From NCBI GenBank assembly GCA_003697135.1, contig RFGC01000035.1, positions 372,001-436,000 on the forward strand: a stretch of 64,000 bases of DNA, given 5' to 3'. Positions within the stretch are counted from its first letter, which is position 1. Every line of letters begins with the position of its first letter. The stretch is from Acidobacteriota bacterium (lineage in GTDB: Bacteria; Acidobacteriota; Blastocatellia; Pyrinomonadales; Pyrinomonadaceae). A model generated the notes under the pieces. It was not told the DNA's origin. It did no database searches and saw only the letters and a program-made list of their open reading frames with translations. The position numbers and the translations under genes were made by a program. Of this stretch, positions 35,404-36,865 are shown piece by piece.

Positions 35404-35427
35404 AAAAATTCAGCCCGCTCTAGGGCT
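35404..35427 (-). terminator. Intrinsic terminator of the pseudokinase gene
   Basis: A five-pair stem (AGCCC with GGGCT, 35412-35416 and 35423-35427) with loop, then a T-rich tract on the minus strand (35404-35409). It overlaps the stop codon of the gene it follows. Confidence 0.6.
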
Positions 35428-36865
35428 TTTTGTTTGAAGAGGCTGGCGTAGGCGATTGATTAGGTCTTGGTGTAGAGTTAGGTAGATTTTGTAGTTCCTG
35501 TGTTTTTTGCTTCGTTGAGTCTAACTTTGGATTTTCTGTTTTCAGGTTATCTGTTTGCTGCGAGTTCGAGTTAGAAGGTAATGATTTCGGTTTTTGAACA
35601 TTTGAATTAGCCGATACATTGGAGTTTTTGGGAACGAGAACATAAATGTTCCCATCTGGGGCCATGAAAGGGCTATTAGGATTAACGTTGCCATCATAAA
35701 ACTGCCCTGTCGGCGGCACAAAACTTCCAGTTGCCCAAGGATTTGCATTACTGCCTTTGCTCTGTCTTACAACCTCAGGATTGATCTTGCTATTTGACAG
35801 GCTCAACGTCCCAAAATCTTTCATGTTAGAAAGCACTCTCTCTTCAGCACCTGTCGCCGGGCCTATCGGCTGAACGGGTGTTGCATCTGCATCAGTCGGG
35901 AGTTTCGTAGGCGGCTCAATCTGCTTGGTCCACGTTAGGTAAATAAAAAATCCACCCAAAAGCAAAATTCCTGCGAGAGTGATGAACGCCGTTTTCCACA
36001 GGTTACTGCTTGATTGAAACTCTTGCTCGCTCTTAATCTGAAAAGCATCTTTCTTTGGAAGGCTTCCCACAACAGCAAAATCGAAGCTTTCCGCAAAGCC
36101 TTTAACGCTTTGAAAGCGACTGTCTGGATTTTTGGCTAAAGCGCGTCGGACTACGGCTTCGAGTTCCTCTGAAACGTCATTACGAAAATCTGAGATTGGC
36201 CGGGGCAAATCTTTAAGATGTTTTGAGTGTAAGTCTTCAAGGCTCGTTGAAGAAAAAGGGACTTGCCCAGTCAGCATTTCATAAGCAACAATGCCAAGAG
36301 CGTATATGTCGCATCTTTCATCTTTCAAACGGAAATTGGAAAATTGCTCAGGTGCCAGATATTGTGCCTCTTCGACGCTAGGAGATTCCGAATATGAATA
36401 ACTGGCAAAGCCGAAAACCTTAATCAAGTTTTCTCGTTCGTCCAAAGGGCAAACGAATATATTTTCAGAACTTAAACGTCCGTGGACGATATTGTTTAAG
36501 TGGGCAGTTTGAAGGACAGATGCAATTTGATTTATTATTCGGCATGATTCTTCAAGAGACAAGATGCCCTTGCGCTTTATTGTCTCCTTCAATGTTTCAC
36601 CTTCGGGCATCTCAAACACGAGAAACGATTCTCCTTCAGTCTCTCCGTAATCTATGAGATCCAACAAATTAGGATGAGAAAGTTTTGTTAAAGCAAAAAA
36701 ATCTTCCAACTTGAGAGATTCTCCGATCTCAAGAGGAAAAATCTCCACTAAAACCTTTTTCTGAAGCGGAAGTTGTGTGCCTTGATAGATTTCAGCCCGC
36801 CCAACGTTTTTAATCAAGGCATCAATTCGATATTTCCCAACCAACAACTGCCCTACACGCGTCAT
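35420..36865 (-). CDS. Transmembrane protein-kinase-fold protein, predicted pseudokinase
   Basis: A 481-residue protein with a Hanks-type kinase fold at residues about 10-275, one membrane span near 298-320, and a Pro/Ser/Asn-rich outer tail. The fold is clear: LSHPNLLDLIDYGE, YLAPEQF and CDIYALGIVAYEMLTGQVPF are normal. The catalytic sites are not. The nucleotide lysine position reads VLVEIFP (Glu for Lys). The HRD loop reads VHGRLSSENIF (no Asp, and Ser for the Lys). The DFG motif reads VFGFAS (Gly for Asp). The glycine loop also lacks its glycines. A signalling scaffold is more likely than an active kinase. It stands alone. Confidence 0.85.
   Translation of the reverse strand: MTRVGQLLVGKYRIDALIKNVGRAEIYQGTQLPLQKKVLVEIFPLEIGESLKLEDFFALTKLSHPNLLDLIDYGETEGESFLVFEMPEGETLKETIKRKGILSLEESCRIINQIASVLQTAHLNNIVHGRLSSENIFVCPLDERENLIKVFGFASYSYSESPSVEEAQYLAPEQFSNFRLKDERCDIYALGIVAYEMLTGQVPFSSTSLEDLHSKHLKDLPRPISDFRNDVSEELEAVVRRALAKNPDSRFQSVKGFAESFDFAVVGSLPKKDAFQIKSEQEFQSSSNLWKTAFITLAGILLLGGFFIYLTWTKQIEPPTKLPTDADATPVQPIGPATGAEERVLSNMKDFGTLSLSNSKINPEVVRQSKGSNANPWATGSFVPPTGQFYDGNVNPNSPFMAPDGNIYVLVPKNSNVSANSNVQKPKSLPSNSNSQQTDNLKTENPKLDSTKQKTQELQNLPNSTPRPNQSPTPASSNKKP

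Follow-up and report, generated by a model that had tools for sequence, protein, structure and literature searches.

We found that a gene in the window, the 64,000-nucleotide stretch of DNA that was analysed, encodes a transmembrane pseudokinase, and that its lineage was converted from a transmembrane kinase of intact type, most simply once, as shown by the sequences, the gene neighbourhood, and the trees. After this conversion, the protein was probably retained as a membrane-tethered, non-catalytic scaffold or adaptor.

Fold, motifs, and parts of the window protein

The Pfam Pkinase model matched residues 58-252 of the protein (E 8.9e-28, 97.8 bits; cut-off 31.7), and the nearest solved structures for residues 1-257 were StkP (E 4.8e-30), PknA (2e-29), and PknB (5.6e-26). 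The places of the motifs were read from an alignment that also contained 63 further pseudokinase orthologs and 32 intact ones. The features of the gene are as follows.

35420..36865, minus strand: pseudokinase gene, 481 amino acids, ATG start (open reading frame; 66 genomes carry the ortholog)
36095..36841, minus strand: domain with the kinase fold, about residues 9-257 (matched by Pfam Pkinase and by StkP/PknB)
36743..36745, minus strand: E41, at the place of the VAIK Lys (ortholog alignment)
36470..36484, minus strand: HGRLS, H128-S132, at the place of HRDLK (ortholog alignment)
36404..36412, minus strand: GFA, G152-A154, at the place of DFG (ortholog alignment)
36356..36403, minus strand: activation segment, shortened to 16 residues and lacking the Gly-Thr found in the intact orthologs (alignment)
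36347..36355, minus strand: conserved APE, residues 171-173 (ortholog alignment)
35933..35992, minus strand: transmembrane helix, residues about 292-311, with a conserved W290-K-T-A-F just before it (alignment, hydrophobicity)
35840..35893, minus strand: outer motif 1, D325-E342 (DADATPVQPIGPATGAEE), a pattern common to the intact orthologs (DPNSQPVQPxxPPTGxxE) (alignment)
35630..35746, minus strand: outer motif 2, residues about 374-412 (NPW...GQFYDGN...SPFMAPDGNIYVLVP) (pseudokinase alignment)
35423..35629, minus strand: variable end, residues 413-481, rich in Pro, Ser, Asn, and Lys (sequence, alignment)

A sequence-only reading of this DNA had proposed a kinase fold with E41, HGRLS, and GFA at the VAIK, HRD, and DFG places, and the alignment, Pfam, and the StkP, PknA, and PknB matches bore this out. 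The VAIK Lys is E41, the HRD Asp is R130, the Lys two places after it (HRD+2) is S132, and the DFG Asp is G152; APE (171-173) and DIYALG are retained. Several features go beyond that reading: the HRD Arg is changed to Gly and the DFG Gly to Ala, two of the three Gly places of the glycine loop differ, the alpha-C Glu place is an alignment gap, the activation segment has 16 residues versus 25-31 in the 32 intact orthologs, and the outer tail of the pseudokinases holds strongly conserved motifs in the ortholog alignment. As it combines a kinase fold by profile with lost catalytic residues (E41, R130, G152), the protein classifies as a pseudokinase, and from these replacements we infer that it would be catalytically inactive.

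The peak hydrophobic stretch begins at residue 292-293, giving one transmembrane helix. Pro, Asn, and Ser are abundant in the outer tail, which, as had been claimed, is without PASTA repeats, no PASTA match having been found in the protein by the Pfam scan. At an E threshold of 0.001, the protein matched only Pkinase and PK_Tyr_Ser-Thr in Pfam; no YukC-type, MurJ-type, or other domain was matched. A role in peptidoglycan sensing had also been put forward; this was not upheld, as the tail is conserved but no binding domain in it rose above the Pfam cut-off among the matches listed. Outer motif 2, present in the pseudokinase alignment, was absent from the intact-ortholog tails compared.

Two further results on the protein were set aside. 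Nine of 24 tails weakly matched Pfam VirB8 (best E 0.00037); we read this as a resemblance of transmembrane helices and rejected the link, because the four matches that were detailed lay below the cut-off and spanned the helix plus about 30 residues. An AlphaFold2 model of the window kinase fold, made with one distant actinobacterial relative, had a mean pLDDT of 30.8 and was discarded.

Distribution of the two forms and the order of the losses

A protein search that covered 97 genomes, among them the genome of the window, found a further 23 full-length pseudokinases, 33-48% identical with the tail included. A tail-only profile (A1, 24 rows) run on 162 genomes of the class matched 74 of them, 66 strongly (E 8.9e-31 or better) and 8 weakly. 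The 66 genomes all belong to ten genera of one family and have one strong match each; in an even draw across the phylum, 15 of 297 genomes were matched by the tail profile, all in the same family. Seven of the eight weak matches were in genomes with a kinase whose motifs are intact and whose outer motif follows the pattern DPNSQPVQPxxPPTGxxE; in the eighth genome (G158), the weak match was without a kinase open reading frame, and the active-type tail is located elsewhere. A scan of genome contigs gave one distant Glycomyces kinase only. No description of this pseudokinase family was found in the literature searched, beyond whose reach most subscription papers lay.

A second profile, made from 31 active-type tails (A3), gave 44 active-type matches in the same family at E 3.5e-14 or better, including its own 31 members. 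The two forms were not found together in one genome: in each of the 66 pseudokinase genomes, the best A3 match was the pseudokinase itself, and no second match was better than 1e-5. A hidden intact copy in these genomes was thus considered and rejected, on the A3 result and on the position of 21 further kinases, the nearest ones in ten pseudokinase genomes, which fell outside the group in a tree holding part of the kinases of those ten genomes. A long match in G017, considered in this connection, is a different intact kinase.

The intact-type kinase of sister genera (for example L095 and L096) is the ortholog of the window gene, with outer motif 1 in common and, for most of the pseudokinase loci, the same neighbourhood. 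It differs in having intact VAIK, HRDLK, DFG, and Gly-Thr and an N-terminal Cys motif, and outer motif 2 was not seen in it. Orthologs with intact motifs had been named beforehand as grounds for giving up the pseudokinase assignment. They do exist in these sister genera, but they show the ancestor and do not refute the assignment, which stands. The window gene fits the ortholog group of the intact kinase, as the two forms are sister groups in the kinase tree and have an outer motif in common.

Both forms share a neighbourhood near atpI-atpB-atpE and lpxK. With neighbours named by Pfam, AtpB was found in 13 of 18 pseudokinase loci (the window included) versus 14 of 16 active loci, and LpxK in 7 of 18 versus 15 of 16. 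One or the other lies near the gene in 14 of the 18 pseudokinase loci; neither adjoins the window gene or the copy in the other genome of its genus (G001), and AtpB of the window's own genome (G000) lies elsewhere on the contig (C12:119602). AtpE was called as the next gene upstream on the same strand at 15 loci (9 of the 18 with a pseudokinase and 6 of the 16 with an active type), and in 13 of these the gap measured 143-304 bp. Antisense open reading frames or other genes lie between AtpE and the kinase gene in the remaining loci, and two pseudokinase loci end at contig ends.

Motifs were scored in 64 of the 66 pseudokinases (two fragments were left out) and in 32 of the 44 active types. In the active types, every motif residue was invariant (32/32), except for the HRD+3 place, which is Ser. 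The sequence-only reading had asked whether the substitutions are conserved in orthologs, and they are so in part: the HRD+2 Lys is lost in all 64 pseudokinases and the HRD Asp in 59, with ten different replacements and Asp present in five, but the VAIK Lys is kept in 38 and the DFG Asp in 31. Loss at all three catalytic places together, which it had stressed, does not hold as a family rule, being found in only 19 of the 64, the window gene included. The pseudokinases keep the HRD His (63/64), the APE Glu (64/64), the F-helix Asp (63/64), and the C-lobe Arg (64/64). All 64 lack the Gly of the P+1 Gly-Thr, which all 32 active types have. As 27 of the 64 have the VAIK Lys and the DFG Asp together, without the HRD Asp, many of these orthologs may still bind ATP. 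The congener in G001 has the VAIK Lys. A single case, L130 (G135), has the VAIK Lys, HRD Asp, and DFG Asp all present, without the HRD+2 Lys and the DFG Gly, and is possibly a reversion; L126, a close relative of it, has Glu at the HRD Asp place.

Of 18 distinct intact genes checked, 17 had an N-terminal CxxC...C motif, which the Pfam scan left unnamed and for which 'zinc ribbon' is our own label; the remaining gene starts at a contig end. For 23 of 24 pseudokinases, no more than 26 codons of open frame precede the match, which is too few for this motif. Before the transmembrane helix, intact orthologs such as L059 and L095-L098 have a recurrent cytosolic NRIVVPT followed by DEATVV or similar, and the Thr residues of this stretch are possible sites of phosphorylation. 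Several pseudokinases, for example L016 and L019, still have similar stretches of the form ETxVxP. The pseudokinase gene L140 (G113 C28) is split over frames in the tail.

In a quick marker tree (AtpB, KdtA, LpxK, and EF-P; 51 genomes, 12 rows at or under half filled), one branch separated 21 pseudokinase from 30 active genomes with an SH-aLRT of 100, three of the four markers being near the gene in many genomes, so that the tree is not wholly independent of the locus. In the kinase tree, the 32 active rows grouped together (support 95), and the 47 pseudokinase rows grouped with L010, a long-branched paralog from the window's genome (97). When the 21 nearest other kinases were included, the pseudokinases (96) and the active types (98) were sisters (96) and the others lay outside. 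Since these 21 are mostly intact (DFG matched in 21 and the HRD pattern in 19), the intact state is ancestral. The fewest changes on the kinase tree were one for the HRD+2 Lys, three for the HRD Asp (kept or lost), five for the VAIK Lys, and ten for the DFG Asp.

The course of events can be read from these results. The intact ortholog, encoded near the F0 ATP-synthase genes in sister genera, is a transmembrane Ser/Thr kinase made up of an N-terminal Cys motif, a kinase of PknB type, a transmembrane helix, and an outer motif. On the stem of one ten-genus clade, the HRD Asp, the HRD+2 Lys, the P+1 Gly-Thr, and the N-terminal Cys motif were lost, apparently once. Nucleotide binding would then have been dispensable; the residues for it eroded repeatedly, all of them in the lineage of the window.

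Other kinase genes of the genus also look altered. Both of its genomes have a second pseudokinase (L182/L010, G000 C40:21201-22025; L181, G001 C11), with HRN in both, MEF for DFG in L010, an N-terminal Cys motif, and another Cys-motif kinase nearby. Just past the end of the window, L008 (G000 C12:436607-437299) keeps HRD and has GFP near the DFG place, and the degenerate kinase-like L011 reads HMN. In all, 4 of 11 Hanks-type genes of the window's genome look impaired (the window gene, L010, L008, and L011).

Constraint on the fold and the tail, and the possible role

We calculated dN/dS from pairs at least 66% identical (32 pseudokinase and 19 active pairs). In the pseudokinases, it did not exceed 0.313 in the kinase part (defined in 30 of the 32 pairs) or 0.279 in the tail (all 32 pairs). 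The median ratio of dN in the kinase part to dN in the tail was 1.48 (0.56-8.0) in the pseudokinase pairs and 0.45 (0.24-0.75) in the active pairs, a shift of constraint to be read as a direction and not as a measurement, because the pairs are non-independent and many dS values are saturated. With reduced lists, the medians were 1.25 (13 pseudokinase pairs) versus 0.44 (8 active pairs, one locus twice; Mann-Whitney p 1e-5). In the active pairs, the tail thus changes at about double the rate of the kinase fold; in the pseudokinase pairs it changes, by median, no faster than the fold, and in at least 11 of these 32 pairs its rate still equals or exceeds that of the kinase part.

A conserved pseudokinase with a mainly non-catalytic role is supported by the core residues kept and the low dN/dS. 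Selection for such a role had been argued from the triple loss; the role itself stood on these other grounds, and the triple loss as a family rule did not. The retention of the gene and the shift of constraint suggest a scaffold in which the outer segment would matter most. As the comparison shows, the protein, which spans the membrane once, kept the kinase fold as its non-catalytic cytosolic part, and the outer segment became relatively more conserved. In such an adaptor, the outer motifs would serve to bind a partner in the envelope, and the inactive fold would dock a cytosolic one.

Other explanations were weighed against this scaffold. The pseudokinase domain might pair with and switch an intact kinase of the cell, the outer tail serving as the signal. 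PknB-type kinases activate through dimers, the genome has seven other Hanks-type kinases with an HRD- or YRD-type loop and DFG (L001-L007), and the fold is under purifying selection; we nevertheless consider this unlikely, although the lack of a second kinase beside the gene in most loci read says little. That the fold uses ATP for another transfer or for weak phosphorylation seems very improbable. A review names SelO and SidJ as pseudokinases with other chemistry (PMC12599244), and the 27 orthologs with both the VAIK Lys and the DFG Asp would suit such a reaction; however, 19 of the 64 orthologs, the window protein among them, have none of the three residues, and the HRD Asp place takes eleven letters, Asp included, which is unlike a new active site.

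A role in the assembly or regulation of the F0 ATP synthase is suggested by the presence of AtpB at 14 of the 16 active loci and at 13 of the 18 with a pseudokinase. We hold it to be highly unlikely, as AtpE is next upstream in only 9 of 18 and 6 of 16 loci, mostly across the gaps of 143-304 bp, other genes intervene in several active loci, and both genomes of the window's genus retain the gene without atp linkage. Nor is the gene at all likely to be decaying and on its way out: the VAIK Lys and DFG Asp were lost repeatedly, three genomes of the same genera (G108, G119, and G138) have no match, and the G113 copy is split, but the gene is present in 66 genomes of ten genera, with dN/dS at most 0.32 where defined and invariant residues in both the fold and the tail.

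Relation to known kinases and pseudokinases

By sequence, the PknB/StkP/PknA-type kinases have the closest fold, and like the window protein they combine a kinase, a single transmembrane helix, and an outer segment. The window protein differs in having neither intact catalytic motifs nor outer PASTA repeats, and it scored 180 bits with the NCBIfam PASTA-kinase model NF033483, below the cut-off of 450.

In two papers (PMC12599244, PMC13037476), EssB/YukC of type VII secretion and TraF of pIP501 are described as transmembrane pseudokinases that act as interaction hubs. On that description, they are the closest functional parallels, having an inner pseudokinase and an outer part as in the window protein. 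Unlike EssB/YukC, the window protein matches only general kinase families in Pfam, which holds a YukC-type family model, and derives from an intact ortholog at the same locus. No secretion family was found by Pfam among the neighbours scanned. By these comparisons, the protein falls outside the EssB/YukC and TraF families.

The pseudokinase domain of ActPs3/MviN of M. tuberculosis is described with three degraded motifs, a shortened activation loop, and a transmembrane region nearby (PMC12599244). It resembles the window protein in these three respects. MviN is a multi-span MurJ-type protein, whereas the window protein has one transmembrane helix and no MurJ-type domain. The CP1 pseudokinases, as given in the same review, lack a transmembrane region and are fused to a COG3899 domain (PMC12599244); the window protein has a transmembrane helix and no further Pfam domain. 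The ActPs1, ActPs2, GLW, DYD, and DLHK families are presented there with family-specific motif logos, and the word stem 'acidobact' does not occur in the text of that review (PMC12599244).

Bacterial pseudokinases have mostly been described as separate families of unknown function. As an intact-looking ortholog lies in the same neighbourhood of sister genera, the order of the losses can be read here: the catalytic loop first, and the nucleotide-binding residues later and repeatedly. Somewhat tentatively, we take the locus as a before-and-after record of a receptor kinase becoming an outward-acting scaffold, in which the catalytic loop, the P+1 Gly-Thr, and the Cys motif were lost once, the ATP-site residues drifted later, and selection shifted to an outer motif found nowhere else in the genomes searched. 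The paired intact and degenerate orthologs allow ATP binding, dimerisation, and partner binding to be compared side by side, and the conserved outer motifs point to where the function may be sought. The family thus offers a clean natural comparison of a kinase turning non-catalytic.
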